Part shown: piece after piece, positions 14,988 to 45,639 of the stretch | How the letters are laid out: each line of letters begins with the position of its first letter | Numbering within the stretch: the stretch's first letter is position 1 | Assembly (NCBI GenBank): GCA_002719955.1 | Contig: PBFW01000056.1 | Location: forward strand, 62,001 to 126,000 | Length of the DNA: 64,000 bases | DNA from: Deltaproteobacteria bacterium | Lineage (GTDB): Bacteria > Myxococcota_A > UBA9160 > UBA4427 | Direction of reading: 5' to 3' | Program-made: the position numbers and the translations under genes | The notes under the pieces: generated by a model | Databases searched by the model: none | What the model saw: the letters and a program-made list of their open reading frames with translations, nothing else | What the model was told of the DNA's origin: nothing

Positions 14988-15066
14988 GGATCGGGGCGGA
15001 GCTTAGCCGGCCAGGGCGGATCCGGGCAGGCGGCGGAGTGCGAGAAGTGCGACTACTTTCCCGCGC

Positions 15067-16017
15067 GTGAGCATCGTGCATCTCGACAAGAGCGAAGGGC
15101 GGGAAAGTGCCGCGCAGGACGCGGCGTTCATCGAGGCACTCCGGCGCCGCGCGGCGGAGTCACTCGAGCGCGCGTACCGTTTTCTCGAGACCCAGCCGGA
15201 TCGATGGGCGCTGTTGCGGGCCCAGGTGCTTTGTGCGGCGCGGCCCGCTGCAGATCTGGCCGCGAAGCTCGGGGAGACGCAGGCCGAGGACGGTCGTCTG
15301 TCGCTCGGCACTCTGGTCTCGGGCGGGGGGCTCGGTTTCCCCGCGACCGATCTGGCGGCGCTCGACGCGGATCAGTGTGGCATTGTGGGGACGCTCGAGG
15401 CGCTTCTCGTTGCGGGGGATGCGAAGTTCCTCCACGCGGCCTGGGTCGAAAGAGCCGTTCGCTTTGTCGAATCGCGTCAGGCTGAGGATGGCGCCTATCG
15501 GATCCCGAGCATCGGGGCCGATCGCGCTGCGCAGCAGGCGGATATCTTCTGGACCGGCATGGTCGCCGGCATTCTCGGGCGCACGCCGGTGTCGCGGCCG
15601 AGTCATCTCGAGGCGGCCGGTGATTTCCTCTCCGAGCGTTTCGAACCCGAAGCGGTCGAGCAGGGGGGGTATTCGGCACTGATCGCCTACGCTCATTTCT
15701 ACACCAATGTGCCCCACGAAGAGGCGGATCAGGCCCTGCAATGGTGTGGTCGCGCACTCGAGAAGGGGTTTCGCAGCCGGCAGCTCGATGCGGTTGCGGT
15801 GGTGCGGGTCCTGTTGACCTGTGATGCCCAGGCCATGCCCGGAGCGAGTTTCGATCTCGTCGAACTCCTGGAGCGCATGATGGAGGAGCAGGCCGGAGAT
15901 GGAGGTTTTGCGGAACTCTCGTTCGATGGCCCGACGGCCCGCACGACCCAGACCTTCGACGCGATGCTCGCGATCGTGCGCCTCTGCGGGGCGCTGGATT
16001 TGGGGCCAGACCTCTAG
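15067..16017 (+). CDS. Prenyltransferase/terpene-cyclase-like helical repeat protein
   Basis: 316 residues, predicted almost wholly helical, GTG start 78 bases from the divergent DUF255 gene. Short repeats of the type AEDGAYRIP (about residue 140) and AGDGGFAELSFDG (about 280) recall the QxxDGgw/F repeats of squalene-cyclase and prenyltransferase alpha-toroids. The cyclase catalytic aspartates (DXDD, DCTAE) are absent, so a scaffold or binding role is more likely than terpene cyclisation. No signal peptide. I do not recognise a characterised homologue. Confidence 0.6.
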   Translation: MSIVHLDKSEGRESAAQDAAFIEALRRRAAESLERAYRFLETQPDRWALLRAQVLCAARPAADLAAKLGETQAEDGRLSLGTLVSGGGLGFPATDLAALDADQCGIVGTLEALLVAGDAKFLHAAWVERAVRFVESRQAEDGAYRIPSIGADRAAQQADIFWTGMVAGILGRTPVSRPSHLEAAGDFLSERFEPEAVEQGGYSALIAYAHFYTNVPHEEADQALQWCGRALEKGFRSRQLDAVAVVRVLLTCDAQAMPGASFDLVELLERMMEEQAGDGGFAELSFDGPTARTTQTFDAMLAIVRLCGALDLGPDL

Positions 16018-16081
16018 CGGCTCCACTCACCGGCGGTCGAGGGCCTAGGCATCACGAGTCTTGGGAGATTCGCTCAGGCCC

Positions 16082-16789
16082 TCAGCCGAGTTCCGCGAAG
16101 AAAGCCCGGATTCGCGTCGCGTTGGCGCCCAGATCGCCCCTTCCGTCGCGAGATTTCGAGCGCACGTCGATTCGAGCGCCCGATCCATCGGGGCGAATCC
16201 GAACGACCACGTCATCCACGAAGCGAAAGATCGCCGAGACGTCATGCGCGTAGAACGCGCCGGCTCCGGCGTCCTTGGCGACCACCTCCCAGCCCAGTCC
16301 TTCGGCCGCAGCGACCGCGCGCACGAAGGTCTCTGTGGGTCCGACGTCGACCCGAAGCGCCTCGAGGTCGGGATAGGACTTGCGCACGATCGCGACGAAC
16401 TCCGCTGGATAGCTCATGTCGCGACCGGCGTATTCGGGCACGAGCGCGTTGTCCGCGAAGGCCGGCGGGTCGGTGAGATCGGTCGTGATGTCATTGATCG
16501 GCGGAGCATCTCCGCCGGTCGAGGCCGCCGCGAGAACGACGATGAGCAGGCCGAGCGCGATCGAAAGGCCGACGAGTGCCTGGGTGTGTCCGGCCGGGTC
16601 GCGGCCGCCACGGGTGAGGACGAGGCCGATCAGGGCGAGGGCGGTGCAGAAAAAACCACCGAGGAGCGTTCCGGCGACGAAGGTCTGAAAGCCCGCCATC
16701 GGTGAAAAGAAACCGAGATAGGCGCCGAGCAGGCCGACGAGGGCCAGGGCGAGGGCGATCAGCGAGAGTTTCGGGGCGGCGGCGGCCAT
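16082..16789 (-). CDS. DUF1499 membrane protein
   Basis: 235 residues. Three hydrophobic segments occupy residues about 8-30, 34-60 and 70-90. They are followed by a DUF1499 domain (NDITTDLTDPPAF at its start, IDVRSKSRDGRGDLGANATRI at its end). The terminal RSxSRxGxxDLGxN block is the signature of the family, whose biochemical role is unknown. The start is well placed: AGGAGA and CCTCC precede ATG 16789. Convergent with the helical-repeat gene across a 64-base gap. Confidence 0.88.
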   Translation of the reverse strand: MAAAAPKLSLIALALALVGLLGAYLGFFSPMAGFQTFVAGTLLGGFFCTALALIGLVLTRGGRDPAGHTQALVGLSIALGLLIVVLAAASTGGDAPPINDITTDLTDPPAFADNALVPEYAGRDMSYPAEFVAIVRKSYPDLEALRVDVGPTETFVRAVAAAEGLGWEVVAKDAGAGAFYAHDVSAIFRFVDDVVVRIRPDGSGARIDVRSKSRDGRGDLGANATRIRAFFAELG

Positions 16790-16984
16790 GGAGGTCTCCT
16801 GGAGGCGAATCGACGAATCCAGATCGAGCGATCGAGTCTATCACGCTCCCTCTCGCCGGCGGCACCCGAAACGCGCGGTCGACGCCTTGCCCTCCCGCGC
16901 TCGGCGCTGCAGGATGCGAAAGTCAGGCGGTGATGAGTCAGGCGGGTGACGAGCCAGCTGGGTGACGCAGACGAAGCGAAGAAG

Positions 16985-17227
16985 AGGGGTCCAGGAGGTC
17001 GGAGCGTGTTCATCTCGAGAAGCAGGGGGCGGCCGTCGCCGCTCGCGGACCCGTGGCGACCCGGCTCGCAAAGGAAATCATGCAGCAGGGGCAGGACGCC
17101 GATATTCGGCTCGTCCACGCTCTGGAGCAGCGCGCCTTCGGCCTCTTCTTCGCATCCGAGGATCGCATCGAGGGCACGACCGCTTGCGTCGAAAAGCGTG
17201 ATCCGGATTTCAAGCGACGCTAGGACC
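16985..17227 (-). pseudogene. Coding-like fragment downstream of leuD, no start codon
   Basis: The frame reads SLEIRITLFDASGRALDAI, then GCEEEAEGALLQSVDEPN and IGVLPLLHDFLCEPG. It is balanced in charge and hydrophobicity and GC-rich at third positions, unlike the arginine/serine-rich shadows in the other five frames. No ATG, GTG or TTG opens it sensibly, and the protein-like character fades after about 17000. It begins right after the leuD stop. I do not recognise the family. It may be the remnant of a gene once behind leuD. The rest of 16790-17239 shows nothing. Confidence 0.3.
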
Positions 17228-17239
17228 GTCCCGCCCTGA

Positions 17240-17854
17240 TCAGGCCGGTAGCTCAATATAGGGGAGCGCCGCTGCGGTCTTTTCGATTGCGTCCCCCGCG
17301 TCGAGCAGGACACGGGTCGCGTCCCAGGATCCTTCCAGGAATTGTTGCCGGACGCCCTCTGGTGCGCCCGCTTCCATCTCACCCGCGCGGGAGCTGACCC
17401 GGCGTGCCCGGAGGTCGATCGAGATCGTGTGCGTCGGGTCGAGTTCGACCGCATCCATCAGCTTCGTGAGATCCGCTTCGCCGAGTGTCACGCAGGGCAG
17501 GCCCAGACTGGTGCAATTGCCGGCGAAGATCTCTGCGAAGCTGCCACCGATGAATGCCTTGAATCCGAAGCGCATCAACGCCTGGGGGGCGTGCTCGCGG
17601 GACGAACCGCAGCCGAAATTCTGGCCGCAGATCAGGATCGAGGCATCCGAGAAACGCTCATCGTCGAGGGGGTGTTTGCCCTTGGCCGCTTTGCGGGCGT
17701 CCTCGAAGGCATGGCGACCCATATCGTCGAAGGTCACGACCTTCATGAAGCGTGCGGGAATGATGCGATCGGTGTCGACATCGTCGCCCCGGACGACGCA
17801 GCCCGTGCCCTCGACGGATTCGATCTTGATCAGGACGTCTTCGTTGCTGGCCAT
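17240..17854 (-). CDS. leuD: 3-isopropylmalate dehydratase small subunit
   Basis: 204 residues, the normal length. The aconitase-swivel domain is plain: DVDTDRIIPARFMK near residue 25 and ILICGQNFGCGSSREHAPQAL near 75, where the GCGSSREHA motif binds substrate. With LeuC it isomerises 2-isopropylmalate to 3-isopropylmalate in leucine synthesis in the cytoplasm. AGAGGA lies 6 bases before the ATG. It follows leuC by 55 bases, so the two are co-transcribed. leuA and leuB are not in the window. Confidence 0.96.
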   Translation of the reverse strand: MASNEDVLIKIESVEGTGCVVRGDDVDTDRIIPARFMKVVTFDDMGRHAFEDARKAAKGKHPLDDERFSDASILICGQNFGCGSSREHAPQALMRFGFKAFIGGSFAEIFAGNCTSLGLPCVTLGEADLTKLMDAVELDPTHTISIDLRARRVSSRAGEMEAGAPEGVRQQFLEGSWDATRVLLDAGDAIEKTAAALPYIELPA

Positions 17855-17909
17855 GTGATTTTCCTCTTCTCGGTGCTTCCCTCGGATTCTTCTCGGGGAA
17901 GAATCGGGC

Positions 17910-19319
17910 TCAAATGCATTTTTGGACGTCGACGACTTTCCCGGCGATTGCCGCGGCGGCGACCATGGCCGGCGACATCAGTAGGGTTCGTCCCGATGGC
18001 GATCCCTGGCGGCCCTTGAAGTTGCGGTTGCTCGAGGAAGCACAGACTTCGCGGCCGCGGAGCTTATCGGGGTTCATCGCCAGACACATCGAACAACCGG
18101 GCTCGCGCCACTGGAAACCCGCCGCCCGGAAGATCTCGTGGAGGCCCTCGGCTTCGGCTTGCTGTTTCACGGCCATCGAACCGGGAACCACCAATGCGCG
18201 CACGCCCTCTTTGACGCGGCCCGTCTGTGCCACCCGAGCGGCCTCTCGCAGATCCGAGATTCGGCCATTCGTGCACGAACCGATGAAGGCGACGTCGATC
18301 GGGGTGCCAGCGATCGAGGCGCCTGCGGTGAAGTCCATATATTCCAGCGCTTCTTCGACGCCCGCGCGCTCGTCGTTCGGAACGCTGTTGGGAGTCGGGA
18401 TCGCTTCGCTGACGCCGAGATTATGCCCGGGATGGATGCCCCAGGTGATCGAGGGTTCGATCGCCGATCCATCGATTTCGACGCGATCGTCGTAGTGGCA
18501 ATTCGGATCACTCGCCATCGCGAGCCAAGCCTGGGCCCGCGCGTCGAAAGCCTCGTCATTCGGCGTGTAGCGTCGTCCGCGCAGGTACTCGACGGTCTTT
18601 TCGTCGGGATTTACGTAGCCACATCGTGCTCCGCCTTCGATCGACATGTTGCAGACCGTCATGCGCTCCTCGATCGACATCGCGTCCACGACCGGTCCCG
18701 CATATTCGTAGGCGTATCCCACACCGCCATTCACCCCGAGTTCGCGGAGAATCGCTAGGACGACGTCTTTGGCATAGACGCCGGGACGCAATTCGCCCGT
18801 CACCTCGATGCGGCGGACCTTCAAGGGGGAGATTGCCATCGACTGGGAGGCGAGCAGATCACGGACCTGGCTCGTTCCGATTCCGAAGGCAATCGCGCCG
18901 AAGGCGCCATGAGTCGAGGTGTGGGAGTCGCCGCAAGCAATCGTCATGCCGGGCTGGGTGAGGCCGAGTTCGGGACCGATCACGTGGACGATTCCCTGAG
19001 CGCCGGTCTCCGGTGAGAAGAGTTGGATGCTGTGGTCTCGGCAATTGCGTTCGAGTTCGCTCATCATGGTTTCCGCCAGGTCATCCTGCAGCGGTCGGGA
19101 TTGATCATCGGTTGGGATGATATGGTCGACGGTCGCAAAAGTGCGATTCGGGAAACGCACGGGCAGGCCGAGTTCTCGGATCATCGCGAAGGCCTGGGGA
19201 CTCGTGACCTCGTGGATCAGATGCGTTCCGATCAGCAGCTGAGTCTGGCCCGTGGGCAACTCGCGGACGCGATGGGCGTCCCAGACTTTCTGGAAGAGAC
19301 TCTCGGGTTTGTCGGTCAT
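17910..19319 (-). CDS. leuC: 3-isopropylmalate dehydratase large subunit
   Basis: 469 residues, full length. [18 protein letters not shown] opens the protein; DHIIPT and [19 protein letters not shown] follow, and the three 4Fe-4S cysteines are in GSCTNGR and [11 protein letters not shown]. It carries the iron-sulfur active site that dehydrates and rehydrates isopropylmalate together with LeuD. ATG 19319 is the start expected from family alignment; the open frame extends far upstream, but that part is not protein-like. Leucine synthesis here contrasts with the leucine breakdown genes near 51-57 kb. Confidence 0.97.
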
Positions 19320-19721
19320 ATTATTGTCCCCATACGCAGCGCACTCGCTAGGCGAGTCCGCTGCCCTGCGGTCGGGAGAACGGTCCCGGATTCGTGGCAC
19401 CCACGTGGTTCCACGCGGAGGGTTCCGTTCTGGAAGTCTGTTCTCGTCTGCGCCGGGACTCGCTTCACTCGGTCGCCCCAGTTGGGCCGGAGCTTCGGAT
19501 GATCCGCACGGACCATCCGAGGTCGAGAATTCGAGGAGTCGCATGAATTCATCGGGGTGGCTTCGATTTTCGGCCCCGTATGGATAGCACGACCCGGCGA
19601 GCCCTGTACCCTCCGGCGCGCTGCGTCTCGGGCGATTTTGAATGCTACAGGCCCAGGGGGGAATCGTTTGGCCGGCTGGCCAACTTCCCGATGATTCGCA
19701 ACGAAGAGGAGACTGAGATCG
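19320..19721. promoter_or_regulatory. 402-base divergent control region of leuC and the esterase gene
   Basis: No gene-like frame. It holds two dyads: ACTCGC-TAG-GCGAGT near 19344-19358 and CCACGTGG near 19408. On the leuC side these could be operators or leader hairpins. I looked for a T-box or a leucine-rich leader peptide and saw neither. The esterase side ends with GAGGAG nine bases before its ATG. Confidence 0.35.
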
Positions 19722-33248: not shown

Positions 33249-34208
33249 TCAGCGAGTCTTCCGACCCTTCCATCGGAATTCGATCCCCGAGGCGATGGTC
33301 AGGACGATTCCGGAGGGCTGCGCCGAGAAGTTGGCCTGGTTGAAATTGACGGTCGGCGTCGGGTTCATTCCGGAAAAACTCGCCTTGCGTTCGGTCAGCA
33401 GCCATGCGGCGCGGGCGTTGAGAAAGAGCCTTGCCGCGAGCCAGTCGGCCTCCCAGACATCGACTTCGAGTCCCAGACCGGCTGCGACCCCATGGATGAA
33501 CTCGGTCTGGCTCTTTTCGGAAATGACGCGAGGATCGTCTTCGGTACCGAGGCCCTGCGAGAGCGTTACTCCAAATGTCCCTTCGGATTCGAACGCCTGG
33601 CCAAAATATTCGAGCGTCGGCACGATATGATATTGGCCGTCGGCGATCGGCAATCGGAAATCGGACCCGATTCCGAAATGCCAGTTGGCTAGGATATCCA
33701 CGAATATCCTCGCTTCGTAGGAGCAGAGCGTCGTCGGTGGAACCTCCGGACAGAAATCGCTGACATCCCCGGTCGTGGTTCCGAAATCGAGAATGTCGAC
33801 ATCGAAATTGTACCGGCCGGCGATGAAGCCGTCGTCGAGCGGCGTCTCGACTCCGGCCTGCGCGAAGAGGCGAGGCGCGCCCTCTCCGAGGAGATTTTCC
33901 GGTGCGTAGAGTCGCATGCCAACGCGAATGAATTCGGTCACGGCGGAGTCGCCGGGGGCGTTGGCGGAACTTCGGTCGGGCTCCCCCGGCAGGGTCGGAG
34001 GGTTGCGGATGGGATCGAGCGAGTCCGGCGAGGAGGCGCTGCCATTCAGGCCCTGCACATGGACGCCGACTCCCAGGCGAAGGGCTGGAACCCAGCCCTC
34101 TGCCTCTTTCTTCTCGGCTGCAGTCTCAGCCGCAACCGAGGGGGCATTCGCCATGGCGAGACCCGCGCACGCGAGGAAGCACAAGGCAAGGCGTCGACGA
34201 ATCCGCAT
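33249..34208 (-). CDS. Outer-membrane beta-barrel-like secreted protein
   Basis: 319 residues. A signal peptide (RIRRRLALCFLACAGLAMAN, cleavage after SVAA) is followed by alternating strands of aromatic and polar residues (RYNFDVDILDFGTTTGD, NWHFGIGSDFRLP, IVLTIASGIEFRWKG), typical of a small outer-membrane barrel. Two cysteines in CPEVPPTTLC could form an extracellular disulfide. No known family. A strong ribosome site (GGGAGGTCC before ATG 34208) fixes the start. Last of a co-directional series, 65 bases behind the helical lipoprotein, so probably in the same operon. Confidence 0.7.
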   Translation of the reverse strand: MRIRRRLALCFLACAGLAMANAPSVAAETAAEKKEAEGWVPALRLGVGVHVQGLNGSASSPDSLDPIRNPPTLPGEPDRSSANAPGDSAVTEFIRVGMRLYAPENLLGEGAPRLFAQAGVETPLDDGFIAGRYNFDVDILDFGTTTGDVSDFCPEVPPTTLCSYEARIFVDILANWHFGIGSDFRLPIADGQYHIVPTLEYFGQAFESEGTFGVTLSQGLGTEDDPRVISEKSQTEFIHGVAAGLGLEVDVWEADWLAARLFLNARAAWLLTERKASFSGMNPTPTVNFNQANFSAQPSGIVLTIASGIEFRWKGRKTR

Positions 34209-34273
34209 GGACCTCCCGACCAACGAGCGGGCGACGCTCGAAGAGGTCTCGCCCATTCTTGAACGCCAAAGGA

Positions 34274-35587
34274 TCATTTTATTTCCGGGTTCTTTTTTCG
34301 AGATGCATTCATGGATCGGCCGAGGTTGAGGTATTTGCGCACCGACCCGGAAATGACGTTCTTCGCGAGATAGGCGTCGAGCCCGTCCGGATCTAGCCGG
34401 GCCCAACGCACGAGGCCCTGTTTCAGGACGGTCTCGCGCTCCTTGAGATCGGGAAGCTGCTTTGCCAGCTCCATGGCCTCCGCGATTTCGCGGACCATCA
34501 TGTATTGCACCAGCGGAAAGATGGCCGAACTCATCGTCGGGTCCTGGTTGACCGCCTTGCCGAGCTCGACCCGAGCGGTGCCCGGGTCCTGCTTCAGCCA
34601 GAGATAGGCCGCCGCCCGTTTGGCGGAACTGGGGTTCTCGGACTCGGGTCGCTGCCTGATGAATTTCATTGCGGCAGCCGGGTCATCCTGTCCCCATATT
34701 TGCACGATGATCAAGAGCGCGTCTCCGGCATACCCTTCGTGCGCGATCTTCGGATACCATGCAAGGCCCTCTTCGAGATTGCGTCCGGCTTCAAGCTGAG
34801 TCGCCTGCATGGCGAGCGCATACCTCAGTTCGATGGCGACCGAATCGTCATCCTTGACCTGCTCGACCCATCGGGCAAATCCGTGTCGATCGGCTCTGGT
34901 GATTTCGATGGCCGTGAGCGCGATCAGTCGTTTTTGATGATCGGTGTCCTCGAGCTCTTGCAGTAATTCGAGCAGCGTTTCGAGCTGCTGATGGCGGCTG
35001 AGCGCAACGGCCAGCGATTCCTGCCCGAGCTTCAATACACCGTCCGGAAGCTCGGCCGAGGAATCACGAAGGGCCTGAATGGCCACTTCCCCCTTCGCGC
35101 CCTGTGCCAGGACGCTCATGATCTCCTCGGAAGCGAACTTGTGGGCTCTGGAACTCTTCCACTTCATGACTTCACGCGCCGCGCCCTGCGCATCGACCTT
35201 GGCCCAGAGGTTCCCGAAAACGCGCGCCTCGTTTGCGCCGCGCGCGTCCAGCTTCCCCTCGAAGGCTTCACGAAATTCCGAGAAGTTGGAAGCGTCGATC
35301 CGTCCATACACGGAGGCGAGAAGCATGTGGCGAACGAATGGATCTACTTCGCTGAGCGCCTTCAGGTAGGCGGGTCCGATCTCCAGGCTTTGATCTGCCG
35401 TCATCCGCTCCGCGATCCTTTCGGAATCGATACGCATTTCGTCGATCGAATCGAGTTGCGATTCGGAATTGCACCCGGACAGAGCGAGCAAGGTCGGGGG
35501 GAGAAGGATTGCTACCGCAACAAGAAACGCCTTGGCCCCATGACGGCACCATTCGTCTGGCTGGGCTCCTTTTCTGTCGGATATCAT
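34274..35587 (-). CDS. Helical-repeat lipoprotein
   Basis: 437 residues. A lipoprotein signal with core AFLVAVAILLPPTLLALSGC, where LSGC is the lipobox. The mature part is a chain of helix pairs like TPR/HEAT solenoids (EALLIIVQIWG..DPAAAMKFI, AKRAAAYLWLKQDPGTARVEL), likely a periplasmic or outer-membrane scaffold. No enzymatic motif. The start ATG overlaps the stop of the TonB-dependent receptor by one base (TGATG), so translation is coupled to it. Not recognised beyond the fold. It probably serves the receptor or the complex around it. Confidence 0.75.
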   Translation of the reverse strand: MISDRKGAQPDEWCRHGAKAFLVAVAILLPPTLLALSGCNSESQLDSIDEMRIDSERIAERMTADQSLEIGPAYLKALSEVDPFVRHMLLASVYGRIDASNFSEFREAFEGKLDARGANEARVFGNLWAKVDAQGAAREVMKWKSSRAHKFASEEIMSVLAQGAKGEVAIQALRDSSAELPDGVLKLGQESLAVALSRHQQLETLLELLQELEDTDHQKRLIALTAIEITRADRHGFARWVEQVKDDDSVAIELRYALAMQATQLEAGRNLEEGLAWYPKIAHEGYAGDALLIIVQIWGQDDPAAAMKFIRQRPESENPSSAKRAAAYLWLKQDPGTARVELGKAVNQDPTMSSAIFPLVQYMMVREIAEAMELAKQLPDLKERETVLKQGLVRWARLDPDGLDAYLAKNVISGSVRKYLNLGRSMNASRKKNPEIK

Positions 35588-38286
35588 CAGAACGTCACTT
35601 TCACGGACATGCCGTAGGTTCGGGGATCGCCAATGGCATAGAGAATCGACCCGCGAAACCGGGCCAGGTTGAAGACGTCGAGCGTGTAGGTCTGATCCGT
35701 CAGGTTCTCCACCCAGCCGGAGATCTCGATATTTTCGCTCGGAGCTTTGTACGTGAGCCGAAGGTTCATCAGCCATAATGCCTTCTGCCCGACCAATTCA
35801 GAGTTCTCCGGGCTGAAAAAGATGTCGTCCTTGAAGGACCAGTCGAAGCGTGGCACGAAAGTACCGTGGGCCGTCGGCAGGATCCATTGGGTATATCCGA
35901 CGAAAGAGAATTCTGGCGAGTTGACGAGCTGAGCTCCCGAGTAGTCGATCGTCGTCGAGACGGTGATCGGAGGGACCCCTCCCGGACTCGACTTGATCGT
36001 GTTCACGAAGTCGGTGTAGGCGCTGTCCAACCACGCAAACGATGCGAATAGGTTGAAGCCATCGAGAATGGGTGGACCGATCCCCTCGAAAGGTCGCAGG
36101 TCGATATCGAATTCGATTCCGAGGACATCTGCATCCTTCGCGTTGATCAGTTGATTGACGGGCAACCCGCCAGACGTGTTCCGCAGTCGGAATACCTGGA
36201 GATCGTTGTAGTCATAGTAGAAGGCCGCAAAATTTGCCTTGACGCGGGCGTCCCACCAGAGGGTCTTGGCTCCGAATTCAACGGAGTCGATCTGTTCGGG
36301 ATCGACCGGCGTTGTGAGCGACTCGCCTGAACTCACGGTCGCGTTTGAGAGCACGAGGCCGTTGATATGGGGTCCCTTCCAGCCTCGCGCATATTTCGTG
36401 TAGAAGGTGACGTCATCCGTGGGCAGGTAGCTGAACGTGATGTCCCAGGCGACGCCGGGCTCTTTTGCTTCACTCTTCTCGTTCTGGATGAAGTTGGTGA
36501 AATCACCATTCGGATTGATGAGCTGGGCTAGCCGGCTGATCCCGCGGCCGGCCAGCTTCATCTCCTTGTTCTCATGATTGAAGCGCCCGCCGACATGCAC
36601 AGTCAAGAATTCGCTGGGTTCCCAGTCGAGCTCCCCATAGACCGAATAATATCGAGTCCACATCTCGTACGATTGGAGCCGGGTGTCCAAGAAGTTGATC
36701 TCGAACTCGTTGTCCACGTCGAGCGATTCGTAAAGGAACATTCCGGCGAGCTGGAGGCTCAATCCGTCCGCTGCGTCCCAGCCGACGCGCCCCTCTCCCG
36801 TCACCTGCCAGGAGGTATTCTCGAGAATGGGCTCGAGGCTCGGGAAGGGATTGCCGTCCAGATTGAGCGTGACATCACGCTGATTCCACTCGTACCCGAG
36901 GATGAGTTTGTGGGTCCAATCTCCGGCGGTAAGCGTGGTCGAGATGCTGGTCCCGAAAAGATCGAGTTTCTCCTTTTCGACGTTGTTGTAGTCGCCTTCG
37001 AAGGGCTTGCCGCCAAAGGGATCTCGAATGATTCCGTTCAGCGGGCCCCCTCCGATTTCCGGGTCGTGGAACTCATTATCCGGGTCTGCATATCCGCTGG
37101 GAAAGTCCCTGTTTGCGATCGAGTTGTCGATGCGAGGCTCTCTCGCCCCCGCCGCCTGTCTCGCTCCGATCAGCTGGAATTGCCGCGCGTCGCCGCGATT
37201 CTGTCCGCCATGAAAGTTGACGAGAATGTCGAGCCCGTCCAGGAGGTCGAGTTCCGCCCGAAAGAGCGCTCGGATCGCCCAGTTGCTGACGTCGTTGACC
37301 CGTTCTTTGACCGGTGGGGTCGTTCCAGGCGTCCAGCCGAGCCCGCCGTACATCGTCGATGCAGTTGCACTCGGGTTGAAGCACTGTAAATGCACTCGCT
37401 GCCTGAAGGAGGTGAGGCCGAGTTCGCCGGGAAACGGACTATTGAAATTGGGATCCCCACAACGATTCTTGGTGTGTCCACCGCGTCGGCTGAGCTTTCC
37501 GGAGATGCGCATCGACAGGATTTCGGGAACCAGCGCAGCTTCGGCTGCCCCCTCGAGGTCGATCTGCTGAAAACGACCGTAGGTTGCGCTGACGTAGCCT
37601 CCGGGCGTCCCCGTCGGCTTTCGGCTGATGACGCGGATCGCTCCTGCCGAGGCGTTGCGCCCGTAGATCCCGCCCTGTGGACCGCGCAGGACGTCCACGT
37701 TGGCGACATCGAAGAGCTGGGCGAGCTGCCCCGCCGGCGAATTCATATAGATGTCGTCGTTGTACACGGCCACCGAGGACGACGAATTGGCATTGAAGTC
37801 GCGCAGACCGACTCCGCGAATGAAGAGCGTCGGATTCGAGGCCGCGAAGGGCGTGCGGATCTCGAGGTTCGGAGTGAACTGCGAAATGTCGGAAAGGTCG
37901 CTTGCCCCGAGTGCCTCCAGATAGTCGGAATCGAATCCGACGACCGAGACTTCCTCGCTCTGGAGGAGCGATGCGGATGTCGTGCCGACGACGATCATCT
38001 CCTCGATCCCGGCGAAGGGATCGACCCCCGCTTCCTGGGCCGAGGCCGAATCGGCGAAAAGCGCCGACAAGAGGATGGCGCCAGCGATCCAGGTGTTGGC
38101 GAGTCGACGGGGGCTGAGCGTTCGGGGGCCGACGCGATTGCGCCTAGGGGCCAGCAAGCGCTCCTTGTTGAGCGCAAGGCCTCGAATCAACGACCTTAGA
38201 GACGGTGGGTGGTCCGGAAAGCAATACGAATAACAAAAGGCGTCGACTGCACTTCCGGCGCGCACCGATTGAGATAGCAAGGTCAT
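35587..38286 (-). CDS. TonB-dependent outer-membrane receptor
   Basis: 899 residues. After a long N-terminal extension the signal hydrophobic core is NTWIAGAILLSALFADSASA. A TonB-box-like EEMIVVGT follows, then the plug (FTPNLEIRT, NPTLFIRGVGLRDF, VDVLRGPQGGIYGRNASAGA) and the barrel, ending SVKVTF with the aromatic C-terminal residue. Imports a bulky substrate (siderophore, glycan, lipid or similar) across the outer membrane with TonB energy; the SusC-type signature is absent. Start ATG overlaps the stop of the sulfatase gene by one base (TAATG). The barrel sequence is of the kind common in sphingomonads and marine bacteria, of mostly unknown specificity. Confidence 0.93.
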   Translation of the reverse strand: MTLLSQSVRAGSAVDAFCYSYCFPDHPPSLRSLIRGLALNKERLLAPRRNRVGPRTLSPRRLANTWIAGAILLSALFADSASAQEAGVDPFAGIEEMIVVGTTSASLLQSEEVSVVGFDSDYLEALGASDLSDISQFTPNLEIRTPFAASNPTLFIRGVGLRDFNANSSSSVAVYNDDIYMNSPAGQLAQLFDVANVDVLRGPQGGIYGRNASAGAIRVISRKPTGTPGGYVSATYGRFQQIDLEGAAEAALVPEILSMRISGKLSRRGGHTKNRCGDPNFNSPFPGELGLTSFRQRVHLQCFNPSATASTMYGGLGWTPGTTPPVKERVNDVSNWAIRALFRAELDLLDGLDILVNFHGGQNRGDARQFQLIGARQAAGAREPRIDNSIANRDFPSGYADPDNEFHDPEIGGGPLNGIIRDPFGGKPFEGDYNNVEKEKLDLFGTSISTTLTAGDWTHKLILGYEWNQRDVTLNLDGNPFPSLEPILENTSWQVTGEGRVGWDAADGLSLQLAGMFLYESLDVDNEFEINFLDTRLQSYEMWTRYYSVYGELDWEPSEFLTVHVGGRFNHENKEMKLAGRGISRLAQLINPNGDFTNFIQNEKSEAKEPGVAWDITFSYLPTDDVTFYTKYARGWKGPHINGLVLSNATVSSGESLTTPVDPEQIDSVEFGAKTLWWDARVKANFAAFYYDYNDLQVFRLRNTSGGLPVNQLINAKDADVLGIEFDIDLRPFEGIGPPILDGFNLFASFAWLDSAYTDFVNTIKSSPGGVPPITVSTTIDYSGAQLVNSPEFSFVGYTQWILPTAHGTFVPRFDWSFKDDIFFSPENSELVGQKALWLMNLRLTYKAPSENIEISGWVENLTDQTYTLDVFNLARFRGSILYAIGDPRTYGMSVKVTF

Positions 38287-39674
38287 TAGTCCTCAATCGA
38301 ATAACCAAGCGCTCGTAGCTGCCGCAGGTGCATGTCATCGAGTTCGATCTCAGGAGCACCACCCTCCCAGGGTGATGTCTGAGCGAGATATGCGTCAGCT
38401 CGGGCGCGAAGAGCCGCCACGATACCACGAAACGAACTCGCGACATCCTCGAATTCGCCGGGGTCTGCATCGAGGTCGAAGAGGAGGTCCCGATCCGGGG
38501 ACTGAGAGTCATGTATGAGGCGGTACGCACCATCCCGGATTCCGACAACGGGGATCGGGTCCCGGTCCTTTTGACCCCACGTGCGATCGAGGTGAGAAAT
38601 CGTCAGGTTCTGGTTCGGTGCTGTGCGTCGTTCGAGCAGCAGCGGCAAGAGCGATGTGCCGTCCATCTGGTCGGGGCCGGCCACGCCGATGAGATCGTAG
38701 AGGGTGGGCCAGACATCGATGTTCTGTGTGGGAAAGGGAACGATGATCCCTGTCTTCATGAGAAAGGGGGGGATCAGTATGAAGGGTGTGCGCACCACCT
38801 CGCTGTGCACATTTCGTGCGTGCCCCTCCGACCCGTGCTCGCCGAAGGCCTCGCCGTGATCGGAAACGAGGACGACGAGTGTCTTCTTTGCGAGATCGAG
38901 CGCGTGCAGCTCGGTCAAGATCATCTCGACCTGCTTATCGGTCCAACGAACGGAATTATCGTACGCGTCCGAGTAGGTCGATCCGAAGAGCGCGTGTTCT
39001 GGGGTCGTGATGTACTGATGAAGATCCATCATGTGCAGGTAGAGAAACCAGCGGCGGTCGCCATTGGCGCGCATAAACTCGATCGCGGAAAAAACGAGAT
39101 CGATGTCCGTGCCATCGATGCGGCCAGCCCCCGTCGGCCGACGCATCGTCGAAGGCGCCTGCTGACCCGTCGGCGTCATGTAGACCTCGAAACCCTGGCC
39201 GAATCCAAAATTGGGGGCGACCCAGCCATTGCGCCAGATCCCGGCGGTGGCGAAACCCGCGGCGCTCAGGATTTCGGCGGGTAGTTCAGCTGCGGGCGCA
39301 ATGACATCGCGATGGTTCAGCACTTCGGTGCGGGCCGGGTAGAGACTCGTCCAAAGAGAGGCCATGGACGTTTTCGTCCATGAGGACTGGGCCCAGTGTT
39401 CGTCGAAGCGGATGCCGGTTCGGGCGAAATATTCGAGCGATGGGGTGGTCTCCCGTTCGTAGCCATAGGCGCTCATGCGATCGGCGCGCAATGTGTCGAC
39501 CAGAATGAAGAGGATATTGAGATCGTCGCGATCCGGAAGGCTCGAAAGATCTTCGAGCGAGCCGATCGGTCGCGTGTCGGGATTCTCGAAGTCACTCGAG
39601 GGGCAAGCGAGGCCCAGGAGCGCGATCGTCGTCAGCGCATGGACGAGGGCCGAACGAGAGCACGCGGAACTCAT
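38286..39674 (-). CDS. Sulfatase-fold lipoprotein (alkaline-phosphatase superfamily)
   Basis: 462 residues. A lipoprotein signal (TTIALLGLAC, lipobox LGLAC) precedes the sulfatase fold. LFILVDTLRADRMSAYGY supplies the first metal aspartates, VVLVSDHGEAFGEHGSEGH the later metal ligands, and the C-terminal LFDLDADPGEFEDV is typical. The segment where true sulfatases have C/S-x-P-S-R is SSWTKTSMASLWTSLYP, so there is no cysteine or CxPSR for formylglycine. A serine/threonine nucleophile makes a phosphotransferase or other hydrolase as likely as a sulfatase. Its ATG overlaps the TPR stop by four bases (ATGA); the receptor follows with a TAATG overlap. Confidence 0.85.
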   Translation of the reverse strand: MSSACSRSALVHALTTIALLGLACPSSDFENPDTRPIGSLEDLSSLPDRDDLNILFILVDTLRADRMSAYGYERETTPSLEYFARTGIRFDEHWAQSSWTKTSMASLWTSLYPARTEVLNHRDVIAPAAELPAEILSAAGFATAGIWRNGWVAPNFGFGQGFEVYMTPTGQQAPSTMRRPTGAGRIDGTDIDLVFSAIEFMRANGDRRWFLYLHMMDLHQYITTPEHALFGSTYSDAYDNSVRWTDKQVEMILTELHALDLAKKTLVVLVSDHGEAFGEHGSEGHARNVHSEVVRTPFILIPPFLMKTGIIVPFPTQNIDVWPTLYDLIGVAGPDQMDGTSLLPLLLERRTAPNQNLTISHLDRTWGQKDRDPIPVVGIRDGAYRLIHDSQSPDRDLLFDLDADPGEFEDVASSFRGIVAALRARADAYLAQTSPWEGGAPEIELDDMHLRQLRALGYSIED

Positions 39675-42298
39675 TGATCCACCTCTGAACGAAGTGCGGC
39701 GAGCATGTCGCGCGCCTCGCCTGCTTCTGGAAAATCACCCACGCGCAGCGCCTCTTCGAAGGCCTCGGCGGCTCGATTTCGCTCGCCGAGTTCGACCAGG
39801 GCACGACCCATCAGGAATGACAGCCTCGGATCGACACTTGCCGTCGACTCGATCGCGACCGCGATCGCGGCCGCGGCCTCGCGCGGCTCGCTCCGCGCGA
39901 GCCGGAGTTCGGCGAGCAGTGAGGCGCCGCTCGCGGGATCGCCCTCGTTGAACCGCGCGGCCCATCGAGCCCAGACGAGTGTCTGCTCACCGAAGTCGTC
40001 GCGCTCGAAGCCGATGCGCGCCAGCGCACGCGCCGCTCGGCTATGCCAGGGATGCTCGACCAACGCCCTGCGGTACCTTCTTTCGGCCTCCTCACGATCC
40101 TCTGCCAGCATCGCCGCGTCCGCGCGCCCCATCACAGCACCGAGAAGGCTGGGTTCTATGTCGAGCACGCGTTGGAAGGCGCTTGCCGCCTCCTCCGGCT
40201 CGCCAGCGTCCAGCAGGAGGCGCCCGAGTTCGATCCCGGCTGGGAGCAGTTTCGGATCGCGTTCCACCGCGAGGCGAGCCGCTGTGATCGCCTTCTCGGG
40301 TTCGCCCATCGAGCGATAGATACGCGCCCATGCGAGCTCGATACCCGCCGAATCGGAGGCTTCGGTGCGAAGCGCACTCAGGCGATCGAGCGCCGTCGTC
40401 CGCTCGGGCTCGCCGCCCTCCGCTTTCAATCGGAACCATAGAAAAAGAGACTCGTGGTGGCCGGGCTGCTCGAATAATCCGGCGTTCTCGAGGCCGGCGA
40501 TGGCCGCCTCTCGGCCCGCCGTGCCCAGCTTCTCTGCGGCTTGATCGGCAAGCATCTGATCCCGCCATCCGAAGCGACTGACGAGCTCGATTCGCGCCCC
40601 TTCTGCGACCTCGAACGCGCCGATCGCCGAGGTCAGGTTGCCGAAGAGACGGAGTGCCTCGGGGTTTTCCTTCGTCTCCCCGAGCAGTGTGGATAGCGAG
40701 TCTATCGCCGCCCCGACGCGCCCGAGCGCGATCTGCATGCGCGTGAGGACCAGGCCTGCGTCGGATTGGCGGGGATCCGCCCGGAACGCATCCTGATAGA
40801 GGCTCATCCCGCGGTCGAAATCGCCGATCTCCATCGCTGCGCGACCCGCGAGATAGCGGGCCCCCACATTCGATGGCCAATATTGGAACGATTCCTCGAA
40901 GTGGGAAAGCGCCTTCTCGGGCGTGCCTCGTTCGAGCGCCAGGCGCGCGTTCAGCAGAAGCGGAAAGACCACTTCCTGGGCGTCTTCTTCGAGGCTCTCG
41001 ATGATCTGCGCGGCTTCGTCGTGCTGGTTCGCGCGGATCAGGATGTCGCCGAACGCGAAGCGAAAATTCCGGGGCAGGGAGGACCACGAAAAGTCGGGGC
41101 TGCCGGGCGCGTGACCGACCTGCCTCTCGACGGCCCGGTGTACAGCCTCACGCGCGCCCTCAAAGTCCTCCCACGCCACCCGGTGATCGGCGAGGGTCAG
41201 GAGCGGTTGGTGAGAGTCTAGGTCTTCTGCAGCCTGATTCAGTTCGCGTGTGGCGTCCTCGCGCCGACCGTTCGCGCTATAGCGGTCGGCCAGGGCGATT
41301 CGTAATCGTTGCCTCAGTCGCCCCGCTCCGGAGGAGGCCTTCTCGAGCGCCGCCGTCGCCTCGTCCTCCTCGCCTTCGGCATCGAGGAAGAGGATCCAGG
41401 GAAGCACGACGTCGGGTTCCGCGGGATAGACCTCGAGGCACGCGAGAAGCATCCGTCTCGCGCGATCGGTTTCGTCTTGCTGGTGTTCGAAGAGGGCTGC
41501 CGCCGCGCAATGCCGTCCCCTCGCGGTGATCGTGCCGCCATGGGCCTCAAGCCCCAGGCCGAGCTCAGCGATCGCCTCTCGCGCCTCCTGGACGCGGTCG
41601 AGCTTCTTGAGCAGCTCGATGCGTGCCTCGTGCGCGGTGAGTTCGCCCGGTACCAGGCCGATCAGGAGGTCCAGATCCTCCACGGCCTTCTCATGGGTGA
41701 GGTGACGTTTGTGGGCGTGGGCGCGCAGGCGAATCAATCGAGGCGTCGCCGGCACGAGGGCGATCAAGCGATCGAGTTCTCGGATCGCTGCTCCGGCGTC
41801 GCCGCCCGCAAAGAGCGCTTGCGCGTGATCGAAAACGACGTCGGATTCCGGTGGTGCGCCCTCGGCGGCGCGGGCGAGTGCCCAGAGGGCGAGGCTCGGC
41901 TTGTTGCTCTTGAGGAGGGCCAGACCGTACTTCGCGAGAGCGGTCGGCGGGACATTCTCCAAAGAGACGACCGGCATGAGCAGATCGACCGCCGCCTGGA
42001 ATTGAGTCGCTTCGATCAGGCGATTCGCACCTTCGATCCGGCGCGTGATCTGATGTGGAGACAGCTCACCCGCGGCCTTTGCGGCCTCCCCAAGGGGTGT
42101 TATCCGATCGCCGTCGGCGTTCCGATCGCACGCAATCGAACCGAGCGCGACCAGAAGACAGCTGGCAACGATCGCGGGCAGAACGCGTGCGCGGCGCGGC
42201 GCGGCATCACGTCTGTCGAGGCGAAATGAATACGAATACAGTGACTCTGCGTCAGCAAGGGGGCGTCTAGCCCGCACGATTCCGATGGACTTTTTCAT
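39671..42298 (-). CDS. Large TPR-repeat lipoprotein, possibly PrsT-like
   Basis: 875 residues from ATG 42298. After an unusually long polar start, a hydrophobic core (VLPAIVASCLLVALGSIAC) ends in a lipobox. The remainder is TPR repeats throughout (for example NVGARYLAGRAAMEIGDFDR, then AWARIYRSMGEPEKAITAAR). Size and architecture are those of the TPR lipoprotein (PrsT) associated with exosortase/PEP-CTERM systems, and a PEP-CTERM gene is divergent next door. That identity is inference; no exosortase gene is in the window. Its end overlaps the sulfatase-fold gene by four bases, opening a four-gene coupled series. Confidence 0.8.
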   Translation of the reverse strand: MKKSIGIVRARRPLADAESLYSYSFRLDRRDAAPRRARVLPAIVASCLLVALGSIACDRNADGDRITPLGEAAKAAGELSPHQITRRIEGANRLIEATQFQAAVDLLMPVVSLENVPPTALAKYGLALLKSNKPSLALWALARAAEGAPPESDVVFDHAQALFAGGDAGAAIRELDRLIALVPATPRLIRLRAHAHKRHLTHEKAVEDLDLLIGLVPGELTAHEARIELLKKLDRVQEAREAIAELGLGLEAHGGTITARGRHCAAAALFEHQQDETDRARRMLLACLEVYPAEPDVVLPWILFLDAEGEEDEATAALEKASSGAGRLRQRLRIALADRYSANGRREDATRELNQAAEDLDSHQPLLTLADHRVAWEDFEGAREAVHRAVERQVGHAPGSPDFSWSSLPRNFRFAFGDILIRANQHDEAAQIIESLEEDAQEVVFPLLLNARLALERGTPEKALSHFEESFQYWPSNVGARYLAGRAAMEIGDFDRGMSLYQDAFRADPRQSDAGLVLTRMQIALGRVGAAIDSLSTLLGETKENPEALRLFGNLTSAIGAFEVAEGARIELVSRFGWRDQMLADQAAEKLGTAGREAAIAGLENAGLFEQPGHHESLFLWFRLKAEGGEPERTTALDRLSALRTEASDSAGIELAWARIYRSMGEPEKAITAARLAVERDPKLLPAGIELGRLLLDAGEPEEAASAFQRVLDIEPSLLGAVMGRADAAMLAEDREEAERRYRRALVEHPWHSRAARALARIGFERDDFGEQTLVWARWAARFNEGDPASGASLLAELRLARSEPREAAAAIAVAIESTASVDPRLSFLMGRALVELGERNRAAEAFEEALRVGDFPEAGEARDMLAALRSEVDQ

Positions 42299-42567
42299 CG
42301 CGTCGGGCGTAGACTGATTCTCGTGTTGTGCGCGGTCCTCATAACTCGACGTTGTTCTGTCGGGCAACGTGATGGCCACGCTGGCGGAGGAGGGGAGTCA
42401 TCGGGCTCGGGGCTCTCTTGAGGGTGCATCTGTATTGGGAGATTCGGGGCGTTACGCGAGTTCACAGCGTTCATGTCATTTCGGAATTTCACCTCTAGGA
42501 TGCCTCCAATCGATTTGGGGAGCCGTTAAATCTGGAGCGACAACGGTGTCGCATAGGGGCGTAACAT
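42299..42567. promoter_or_regulatory. Divergent control region between the TPR lipoprotein and PEP-CTERM genes
   Basis: 269 bases with no gene-like frame, more A/T-rich than its surroundings near 42470-42530. It must contain promoters for both directions. AGGGG eight bases before ATG 42568 is a fair ribosome site for the PEP-CTERM gene. I could not identify sigma-54 or clear sigma-70 boxes with confidence. Confidence 0.35.
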
Positions 42568-43923
42568 ATGCAATCGACAGATCCGAGGATGAGCCGGGTG
42601 CTCGCCATTATCGTCTCGGTCACGTTCACATTTTTCGCGTTCGCGATGCCAGCCTTTTCCCAGGTTGCTTCGGGCGTTTCCCTTTACAAAGGAACTCTAG
42701 CGATCGGCTTCGGTGACCCGGAGAATCAGCCCGGAGGTACGAAGCTCGGTACCGGTGTGGCGCCCGACCTCGCCAATAACGGGCTTCCGGCCTGTGCACA
42801 AACGAATCCCTACGCCCCGGGGACGTTCGCGACGATCGGTTTCTTCGGTTTTGCAACGCAGGGCTCAAGTTCGCCGGCTTCGGTGATGTTCGCCGGCTAC
42901 TCGCCCTTGAATATGACCGCGATGACCGGAGGCGGCCAGGCGCCCGTGGCTTGCGTCCTTGTTTTTCCGCCGTGGCTTGCCAATAACCAACTTCGGTCCA
43001 GGGCGCAGCACGGCACACAGGTCTGGCCTGGAAACGCGGTCAACGCAGCGCACACGGCAGTTACCGGTGCGGCTGGCGGGACCGTCAGTGCGGGCGGCGG
43101 TTTTACCACGAATACGTCGTTTACGCCCACCGGCTTCTACGATCCCTTGAGGTCCGGCATGCAGACGATTACGCCCGGCCCGAACGCTTTCGGCGGCGGC
43201 GTCCCGGTGAACAATGCAGGCCATGTCCAGCTCGGGCAAAATACCGGGGGCGGTCTGAATTTGACCGGTGCCCCTCTCAGGACCTTTGGTGTCAGACAAT
43301 ACATTGATGGTTTCCTACCCTCTGGTCCTGCAATTTTCGGGACGGCGGCTACGACCACCGCCAATGCGGGCATTCCGGTCGGTGTCGAAGTGGGTTTCCC
43401 CTACACGGTTCGCCTGCGCACCCCCGGACCTACCACGACCAATATGGCTGTCTACCCGGGTAGCGTCCAACTTCCCTACACGGCGAATTTTGGCTGGAGC
43501 CACGGGGCGCAAGTCAACGCCGGAGGGTTCCCTGTTACTACGATGGGTGATTTCAAGGGGATTTTTCAGAAATGGACCACGGGCCGGGTCGTACACACCG
43601 ACCACGAAGGTAGCTATGTAACGGACCGGACTGCCACGGGTCATGACTGGACGACAGCCGAATTTGCCGCCAACAGCACGACCGGGCAGCACGGTACGAC
43701 ACGAAAGCTACAGCTCGTGACTCCTTGGTCGGCGAGCATTTCGGTGCGCCAAACCGGGCCCTTCGCGGGCGTACTGGGTGGCCTCCCGGACTTCGGCTTC
43801 GGCGGTGTCGCGGTCCTCACGCTCGACCTGCAGCCGGCTCCCGAGCCGGGCACGGCGTCGATGCTGGCGTTCGGCGCGGCTGGCCTGATCGGACTCGGAG
43901 CGCTGCGGCGACGCAACGGCTAG
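42568..43923 (+). CDS. PEP-CTERM sorting-domain surface protein
   Basis: 451 residues. An N-terminal signal peptide (VLAIIVSVTFTFFAFAMPAF, cleavage near SQ) is followed by about 380 residues rich in Gly, Ala, Thr and Asn with few charges, typical of surface or matrix proteins. The C-terminus is a clear PEP-CTERM signal: APEPGTASM (Pro-Glu-Pro), a hydrophobic helix AFGAAGLIGLGAL and a basic RRRNG end. Such proteins are processed by an exosortase and passed to the cell surface or exopolysaccharide. It is transcribed alone and ends at a strong terminator. Substrate-binding domains are not recognised. Confidence 0.93.
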   Translation: MQSTDPRMSRVLAIIVSVTFTFFAFAMPAFSQVASGVSLYKGTLAIGFGDPENQPGGTKLGTGVAPDLANNGLPACAQTNPYAPGTFATIGFFGFATQGSSSPASVMFAGYSPLNMTAMTGGGQAPVACVLVFPPWLANNQLRSRAQHGTQVWPGNAVNAAHTAVTGAAGGTVSAGGGFTTNTSFTPTGFYDPLRSGMQTITPGPNAFGGGVPVNNAGHVQLGQNTGGGLNLTGAPLRTFGVRQYIDGFLPSGPAIFGTAATTTANAGIPVGVEVGFPYTVRLRTPGPTTTNMAVYPGSVQLPYTANFGWSHGAQVNAGGFPVTTMGDFKGIFQKWTTGRVVHTDHEGSYVTDRTATGHDWTTAEFAANSTTGQHGTTRKLQLVTPWSASISVRQTGPFAGVLGGLPDFGFGGVAVLTLDLQPAPEPGTASMLAFGAAGLIGLGALRRRNG

Positions 43924-44052: not shown

Positions 44053-45222
44053 ATGGGCATCGACATTTCGTCGGGGGGTGGGCTTTTCGGTCGGCGTCCG
44101 ACCCGTGCTGGCCTCATCGTGAGCGATGTCGTGGAGGATCGACGGGGAGTGGACCGGGTCGGTTCGCAGGCTCGAGCCGTAACGACACCCTTTTGGGATG
44201 GCCTCCTGACCGGTGGTCTCTCTCTGGTCGGGATGAGCGCGATCCTCCTCTATATCGCGTTTGGGGGCGAGGTCGGCTTCGTCGAGGCCAACTGGTTCGC
44301 TCTGGCGATCCTGATCAATTCACCCCATTTCATGGCGTCGTACCGCCTCCTCTACTCCTCGGCCGCCGAGATCCGCGCGAATCCCTGGTCGACGATCTAT
44401 GTCCCGGCTGCGCTGGTCGCGATCCTCGGCTTCTGCTTCTTTGCGGCGAGGCCCGGTGCCCTCGTCCAGTGGCTCGTCCTGATCAGCTCGATCTATCTGG
44501 CCTGGCATTACACCGGACAGACCTGGGGAATGGTCGCCTCCTTCAGCCATCTGCACGGCGTCCGATACTCGGACAGGGAGCGCTTCCTGATCCGCTCCGG
44601 ACCGCGGAGCCTGCTCGTCCTCCACGTGCTCTTCGCGCTCACCGGTCGTCTCCCCCCCGGCGGCTACATCGCGCCGGATACCTACGTCGCGGCCTATAGC
44701 GCGGTCTTCGTTGCGACCTGCGCGACGATCGGCGCCAGCGTGATCGCGGGTGGGTGGGCCTTCGTCTCCGCCTACCGACGGGGCGAGCAGATTCCGATCC
44801 AGGTGATCCTGCCCTGGGCCTCGCTTTTTCTCTGGTACCCGTTCTGGTATTTCGTTCCGGGAGGGTTTTTCTGGCTGCAGCTCTCTCACGCGCTGCAATA
44901 CCTGGCCTTTCCGCTGCGGGTCGAGGTGAATCGATATTCCGAGGCCGCGCCGCGGACGCCGGGGCAGAGGAACCTGTGGGCCCTGTTGCTCTACGCCGGG
45001 CTCGTCCTCGTCGGCGCGGTCATCCTGCACGGTCCGCCAATCGCCGCCCACGCTTTCGGCGACGGCTGGTACTCGACGCCCAGGGCGAAGGTCCTCCTGC
45101 TGGCCCTGACGACCTGCATCGCGATCCATCATTTCTTCATCGATGGTGCGGTCTGGAAGCTCAGGAATCCGCGGGTCCGCCAGAGCCTTTTCAGCCATGT
45201 GGAGACGCGCACCCCGGTTTGA
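44053..45222 (+). CDS. Multi-pass membrane protein of unknown function
   Basis: 389 residues with about nine to ten hydrophobic segments starting near residue 48 (LLTGGLSLVGMSAILLYIAF). Conserved-looking polar patches inside membrane regions are INSPHFMASYRLLYSS, LAWHYTGQTWGM, QLSHALQYLAFPLRVEVNRY and IHHFFIDGAVWKLRNP. The repeated histidines in membrane-facing positions suggest a metal- or haem-dependent membrane enzyme or a carotenoid-type oxygenase. That is a guess from pattern only. The first 45 residues may not be translated; GTG 44119 is an alternative start. Stands alone after the PEP-CTERM terminator. Confidence 0.75.
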   Translation: MGIDISSGGGLFGRRPTRAGLIVSDVVEDRRGVDRVGSQARAVTTPFWDGLLTGGLSLVGMSAILLYIAFGGEVGFVEANWFALAILINSPHFMASYRLLYSSAAEIRANPWSTIYVPAALVAILGFCFFAARPGALVQWLVLISSIYLAWHYTGQTWGMVASFSHLHGVRYSDRERFLIRSGPRSLLVLHVLFALTGRLPPGGYIAPDTYVAAYSAVFVATCATIGASVIAGGWAFVSAYRRGEQIPIQVILPWASLFLWYPFWYFVPGGFFWLQLSHALQYLAFPLRVEVNRYSEAAPRTPGQRNLWALLLYAGLVLVGAVILHGPPIAAHAFGDGWYSTPRAKVLLLALTTCIAIHHFFIDGAVWKLRNPRVRQSLFSHVETRTPV

Positions 45223-45321: not shown

Positions 45322-45639
45322 TCAGTTCCCTGCCAGGTCTGTTCCGAGCGGGCGGGTGAAACCGAATTCGTAGGGCTCGATCAGATAGCGGTCGAGATCC
45401 TCTCTGAAAACGGTCTTGTCGCGGTTGATCGGGTACATGATCGCGTGGAGGAGAGAACTCGGGACCAGTAACAAGCCACCCGCGACCAATCGGAATGCGC
45501 CCAGAGGCCGAAGGAAGACCACGTCGACGGTTTTTGCGGCCACGCTGTCGAGATCCGCGGACGTGCCCGGTCGCGCGGCTGCGACGAGCGTCATGGCCAC
45601 GAAGAGGATGATCGCAGCACGCTTGATTCCGGCTCTCAT
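45322..45639 (-). CDS. Small exported protein of unknown function
   Basis: 105 residues. Signal peptide (AAIILFVAMTLVAAARPGTS), then DVVFLRPLGAFRLVAGGLLLVPSS with a second hydrophobic stretch and a polar C-terminus (DRYLIEPYEFGFTRPLG). The RPLG...RLVAGG...PLG pattern occurs in small conserved envelope proteins of proteobacteria, but I cannot name a family. Transcribed alone towards the membrane-protein gene; a 176-base gap separates it from the protease gene upstream on the same strand. Confidence 0.7.
   Translation of the reverse strand: MRAGIKRAAIILFVAMTLVAAARPGTSADLDSVAAKTVDVVFLRPLGAFRLVAGGLLLVPSSLLHAIMYPINRDKTVFREDLDRYLIEPYEFGFTRPLGTDLAGN

Follow-up and report, generated by a model that had tools for sequence, protein, structure and literature searches.

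The locus considered here raises the question of what a sulfatase-fold lipoprotein, a TonB-dependent receptor and a TPR lipoprotein do together next to a protein with a PEP-CTERM sorting tail. It lies in a window of 64,000 nucleotides (the whole stretch of DNA that was analysed), which is part of contig C56 of a draft genome of 5.85 Mb. We call the exported PEP-CTERM protein P and the sulfatase-fold protein S, and list the features in Table 1. A sequence-only reading of this DNA had reported overlaps of stop and start codons on the minus strand between the TPR gene and S (ATGA, 39674-39671), S and the receptor (TAATG, 38288-38284), and the receptor and the helical lipoprotein (TGATG, 35589-35585). 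The coordinates confirmed all three, and added a fourth junction absent from that reading, between the helical lipoprotein and the barrel (ATGA, 34277-34274, minus strand). The divergent PEP-CTERM gene was likewise found where it had been described, 188 bp from the TPR gene. Domain scans matched the receptor to PF00593 (1.7e-32) and PF07715, matched S to PF00884 (3.2e-40) and confirmed the TPRs of the TPR lipoprotein, while the helical lipoprotein and the barrel matched no Pfam or NCBIfam model. Lipobox-like signals are present in the TPR protein (GSIAC), S (LGLAC) and the helical protein (LALSGC). The PEP-CTERM tail of P was borderline in the protein scan (20.6 against a cut-off of 20.7) and above cut-off in the genome search.

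Table 1. Positions of the cassette features in the window.
Feature	Position	Strand	Score or basis
P, exported protein of 451 aa: N-terminal signal, TTG/GxDxR/LV domain, PEP-CTERM tail	42568..43923	+	
P domain (W/F-TTG ... GxD ... GxIxLV), also in other cassette-linked exported proteins	43564..43734	+	profile E=5.9e-16
PEP-CTERM sorting tail (PEP, hydrophobic helix, RRR)	43834..43914	+	25.9 bits, above cut-off
Divergent intergenic region, presumed promoters for P and operon	42380..42567	.	position only
TPR lipoprotein, PrsT-like, under cut-off; start uncertain (ATG at 42298 also possible)	39671..42379	-	
S, sulfatase-fold (PF00884) lipoprotein, Thr at nucleophile position	38286..39674	-	
QSSWTKTSMASLW motif in S; T100 aligned to sulfatase Cys/Ser (formylglycine) residue	39351..39389	-	
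TonB-dependent receptor; nearest solved relative the pesticin receptor, distant	35587..38286	-	
Helical lipoprotein, WAxxDP-type repeats; AlphaFold all-helix solenoid	34274..35587	-	pLDDT 90
Outer-membrane barrel-type protein, family without Pfam model	33249..34277	-	

Overlapping genes in a single genome could be an accident of arrangement, and a search for the gene order in related genomes had been proposed as a check. Scanning 84,980 species genomes yielded 175 relatives of S, from which 79 loci were retained; these genomes are nearly all drafts, many of them binned, open reading frames were called by our own rules, and locus ends truncate many cassettes. With T for the TPR protein, R for the receptor, H for the helical lipoprotein and B for the barrel, the window shows the arrangement P- T+ S+ R+ H+ B+, which was met again in the same genus, in other genera and in another family of the same order; a chance arrangement is thereby excluded. 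The same six families were found in at least five gene orders, among them H+P-T-S+R-B+ or P-H+T-S+R-B+, P+S+R-H+T-, R+H+T-P+S+B-, R+H+T+S+B+, T+P+S+R+H+B+ and a receptor-less T-T-P+S+. The genome containing the window itself encodes four cassettes that differ in gene order, and up to six copies of S occur per genome. Families that keep company despite changed order are stronger evidence for a shared function than a single inherited operon would be. The six families thus form one recurring unit, as the sequence-only reading had held in saying that the genes belong together.

The phylogeny of S indicates which of the six are central. One clade of 13 sequences (support 100/99, in a tree rooted at its midpoint) has P or TPR neighbours and no receptor, some of these 13 loci ending close to S; in the remaining tree, architectures are clustered. 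Since P, S and the TPR protein co-occur in this clade without receptor, solenoid or barrel, we regard these three as the core of the cassette, a conclusion that is well supported, as is the assignment to P of the marks of an exosortase client. The receptor-less state may be ancestral. A view of the locus that centres on the receptor overlooks this core, and also that one whole S clade lacks the receptor.

P has what is expected of a PEP-CTERM client: a signal peptide, the PEP motif, a transmembrane helix, a basic tail and, as the sequence-only reading had asked to be checked, exosortases elsewhere in the genome. Of the 497 open reading frames within 6 kb of S, 59 have exosortase-type tails, compared with 3 among the 217 at greater distance (odds ratio 9.6, p=4e-7). 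Four exported families, apparently separate, adjoin S in first-pass clustering (PEPCT, fam0, fam8 and fam26); their tails are mostly of the PEP type, those of fam0 being mostly VPxLS-like and resembling IPTL-type tags. Directly before the tail lies a common domain, W/F-TTG-x-V ... G-x-D-x-R ... G-x-I-x-L/M-V, whose strict pattern is present in 44 of 68 proteins. P was joined to fam0, fam8 and fam26 through motif and HMM searches, and hhalign pairs that do not involve the P alignment gave 89-97% probability across the same 90 residues. A profile of the domain found 56 copies, in 12/12 genomes with S and 0/8 without; 32 of these copies are no more than 8 kb from an S gene, against 0.64 expected at random placement. 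P proteins matched no Pfam family except PEP-CTERM. The short domain is undescribed and, among the 20 genomes tested, was seen only in those that contain S. The AlphaFold model of P is poor (pLDDT 59), mostly strands between two terminal helices, and gave no significant PDB match to a known fold. A P-type protein occurs within 7 kb of S at 28 of 34 well-flanked loci and at 58 of 80 overall.

The active site of S bears on what the cassette may do. The sequence-only reading had called the nucleophile site unusual, and it is: Thr100 aligns gap-free with the formylglycine-precursor residue of a solved sulfatase, where sulfatases carry Cys or Ser. The motif Q-S-[S/T]-W-T-K-x-S-M-x-S-[L/M]-W is present in 80/80 sequences, an invariance that is partly built in, one of the two scan patterns having contained it; 16/16 seed S sequences, found via the helical-lipoprotein search, carry it as well. 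If the locus were an ordinary sulfatase locus for sulfated glycans, the PF00884 match, the adjoining TonB receptor and the formylglycine-generating-enzyme (FGE-type) homologues encoded in the genome would all be explained, but a sulfatase of this kind should carry Cys/Ser-x-Pro-x-Arg where all 80 sequences have Thr-Lys-x-Ser-Met, and the cassette is without a glycoside hydrolase. It is established that Thr cannot become formylglycine. S was therefore rejected as a formylglycine (S1) sulfatase despite its PF00884 fold, and the proposal that sulfatase and receptor together handle a sulfated glycan loses its support; we consider it very improbable. Thr also occupies this site in other sulfatase-fold proteins of the same genome (W-T-R-P-S-M, W-T-G-A-S-M), so that the Thr type is a wider group here and the residue alone is no marker of role.

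Residues D60, D272, H273 and H285 are invariant in 80/80 S sequences. D272-H273 followed by H285 gives the D-H-x11-H spacing of MCR-1 (D250, H251, H263) and EptA (H453 and H465), enzymes that transfer phosphoethanolamine through a Thr nucleophile (PMC7576196). Judged by sequence, S thus shares with the EptA/MCR, LtaS and YejM members of the alkaline phosphatase superfamily the Thr nucleophile, the acidic residue, the D-H metal ligands (with, as in EptA/MCR, a further His 12 residues on), and a periplasmic location with an anchor. It differs from them in having one anchor or a lipobox instead of their multi-helix membrane domain, and in its best full-length similarity, which is to sulfatases; the EptA/LtaS/YejM NCBIfam models score S at 40 bits or less, far under cut-offs of about 400 or more. 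When the N-termini of 82 S proteins were sorted by a simple rule, 70 had a single membrane anchor without Cys and 12, including the window clade, were lipobox-like. The single anchor without a lipobox points to periplasmic action for most members, while S of the window clade, now a lipoprotein, could possibly reside at either membrane.

The sequence-only reading had likened the TPR protein to PrsT, which accompanies exosortase systems. Its best NCBIfam model is indeed PrsT (TIGR02917), the best of 24 relatives reaches an E of 4.6e-71, and exosortases are present; the score of 143 bits, however, is below the curated cut-off of 312, and the identification as PrsT was rejected. Two other TPR regions of the genome match PrsT better, one of them on the exosortase contig C60, and none in the genome exceeds the cut-off. 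Like the PEP-CTERM/exosortase (EpsH) system with PrsT (PMC1569441), the cassette combines a PEP-CTERM client, a genomic exosortase and a TPR lipoprotein, to which it adds S, the TonB receptor, the solenoid and the barrel. The PEP-CTERM clients described by Haft et al. are mostly in single-gene operons (Haft 2006, PMC1569441), whereas the clients here sit in cassettes and have tails of differing kinds (PEP and VPxLS types).

Conservation is good within the receptor family, which is distant kin of pesticin, heme, siderophore and PQQ receptors. Its gene is directly followed by that of a helical lipoprotein, as in SusC/SusD pairs. The helical family is modelled as a confident solenoid, but the PDB comparison returned no match at E<=1e-3, its top-ranked entries being generic helical solenoids, and by sequence there are weak matches to designed PPR-type solenoids only. 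A SusD-like fold was rejected, no SusD-fold match having appeared in the PDB comparison, and the cassette is not a SusCD system. In the barrel family at most 2 of 27 members match outer-membrane-protein barrel models, weakly, and no solved relative was found. A TonB receptor is present in 51 of 80 S loci and several paralogous cassettes per genome each carry a different P, as would be expected if the cassettes were uptake systems for differing substrates. P would then be a surface capture protein, receptor and barrel would import, the helical and TPR proteins would be scaffolds, and S would be a periplasmic phosphoesterase acting on what is imported. A precedent, likened here by description, is the exoprotein ZepA, which mediates the uptake of zinc, has a PEP-CTERM tail and lies beside TonB transporters; no sulfatase or TPR partner is mentioned for it (PMC10957091). 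What speaks against uptake is the S clade that has P and TPR with no receptor nearby, the helical protein that lacks a SusD-like match, and the failure to recognise a recurring catabolic gene family next to the cassettes.

We tentatively prefer, at somewhat less than even probability, a cassette that serves an exosortase-sorted surface protein, namely P, with S and the TPR protein acting at its anchor and the receptor, solenoid and barrel moving P or its ligand; uptake is nearly as likely. P would be exported by Sec, its PEP-CTERM tail would be cut in the inner membrane by an exosortase of the genome, and its new C-terminus would be left on lipid. Exosortase-family enzymes seem to leave their clients membrane-attached (PMC11980579); ethanolamine-lipid anchors have been proposed for archaeosortase clients, and glycerophosphoethanolamine was reported for a rhombosortase case (PMC7157517). 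S, a presumably periplasmic enzyme with a Thr nucleophile, the alkaline-phosphatase/sulfatase fold and an EptA/MCR-like metal site, might act at the phosphodiester of the anchor, releasing P or transferring it to another acceptor. The TPR lipoprotein would be the scaffold that binds the client, a role that we infer together with the action of S at the lipid anchor. In fuller cassettes, of which the one in the window is an example, the receptor, solenoid and barrel may carry P, or a ligand that P has captured, through the outer membrane. We infer them to be an outer-membrane add-on for import or export, and their cargo and direction are the least certain part of the scheme. Set against serving P are the 6 of 34 well-flanked loci without P, the P copies that occur without a cassette (including a tandem run in G053:C4) and the cassettes' lack of an exosortase gene, exosortase loci lying on other contigs.

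In a more specific form, which we consider unlikely, S, the TPR protein and, where it occurs, the receptor/solenoid/barrel set would be the missing downstream machinery that brings the exosortase-processed protein from the inner membrane out through the outer one, S releasing a client held by an ethanolamine-type phospholipid, or transferring it to an acceptor on the surface, by phosphoryl transfer of the EptA kind and the receptor driving export. TonB receptors import in nearly all cases, which counts against export both here and in the preferred reading. A precedent for export in both is PopC of Myxococcus xanthus, which is not known as a PEP-CTERM protein. It is exported by the TonB transporter Oar (PMC6434023), a likeness by description. 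Rather improbable, in our estimate, is a surface or matrix structure in which P forms a structural coat or serves adhesion, the other proteins assembling it and S also modifying the matrix. Tandem arrays of P would suit it, and two reports link cyanoexosortase B and a PEP-CTERM gene to biofilm and floc formation in other bacteria (PMC12188702, PMC9850573), but such a structure needs no TonB receptor and the cassettes contain no glycan synthesis genes. Nor was any link to exopolysaccharide, to which the sequence-only reading had tied the substrate, seen at the cassettes.

The cassette bears on the question of how Gram-negative bacteria anchor exosortase-cut proteins and bring them past the outer membrane. 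By linking a defined client family with the same few partners it makes this question testable, and it may show how tagged surface proteins are completed, or put to use, on the cell surface. Three undescribed protein families (the P domain, the helical solenoid and the barrel) are placed in context as well, as is a distinct Thr-type clade currently labelled sulfatase. A literature search combining sulfatase, TonB-dependent receptor, TPR and PEP-CTERM, with most subscription journals outside its scope, found no earlier description of the cassette.

As far as sampled, the cassette is confined to one order of uncultured Myxococcota-like bacteria. Close relatives are metagenome-assembled genomes of Myxococcota/Deltaproteobacteria. 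At E<=1e-110 S was detected in 40 of the 45 genomes of this order that were searched, and in none of 192 from elsewhere in the phylum. Exosortase was found (E<=1e-8) in 39 of the 40 S-containing genomes and in a further 33 without S, which places S nested within the exosortase carriers. A few S loci bear other labels (Spirochaeta, Eisenbacteria and a proteobacterium), and these may be mislabelled bins.

Two genes near the PEP-CTERM gene were found to have counterparts around other cassettes of the sulfatase-fold gene and its partners. When the neighbours of the sulfatase-fold gene were clustered, the family of the small exported protein (fam2) appeared again next to cassettes at 12 loci. The hydrophobic protein, for which Pfam gave no match, has a counterpart that adjoins the PEP-CTERM gene at the same position in the closest relatives (L025/L045, L047). 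The same clustering placed a large membrane protein (fam1), which we take to resemble spermidine-synthase-like transporters, close to 16 cassettes, including L052, L065, L068, L070 and L106.

Window genes near the PEP-CTERM gene
Position	Strand	Product	Family
45322-45639	-	exported small protein, ~105 aa	fam2
44053-45222	+	conserved protein, many hydrophobic stretches	

A small exosortase-like gene lies at G000:C63:13067-13510 (locus L004), on a contig that also carries one cassette. Its product falls near the XrtH and archaeosortase B models, scoring 75.6 against XrtH where the cut-off is 86, and is a candidate partner for VPxLS-type tails. In G019:C68, for which no sulfatase-fold gene is listed, a single copy of the domain preceding the PEP-CTERM sorting tail (P domain) and an exosortase gene lie ~2 kb apart (22919 and 25011).

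The closest relative, L025, has a partial second cassette (14248-19628; H- S- T-, that is helical lipoprotein, sulfatase-fold and TPR genes) tail to tail with the first. At L120 (G024:C17), barrel, receptor and sulfatase-fold genes are followed by their mirror image at equal lengths, probably a palindrome arising from assembly.

The P-domain profile search also returned tandem arrays, namely eight consecutive genes at G053:C4:45705-54374, a contig without any listed sulfatase-fold gene, and five at G033:C25:154343-158740. These arrays suggest a surface protein that is diversifying.
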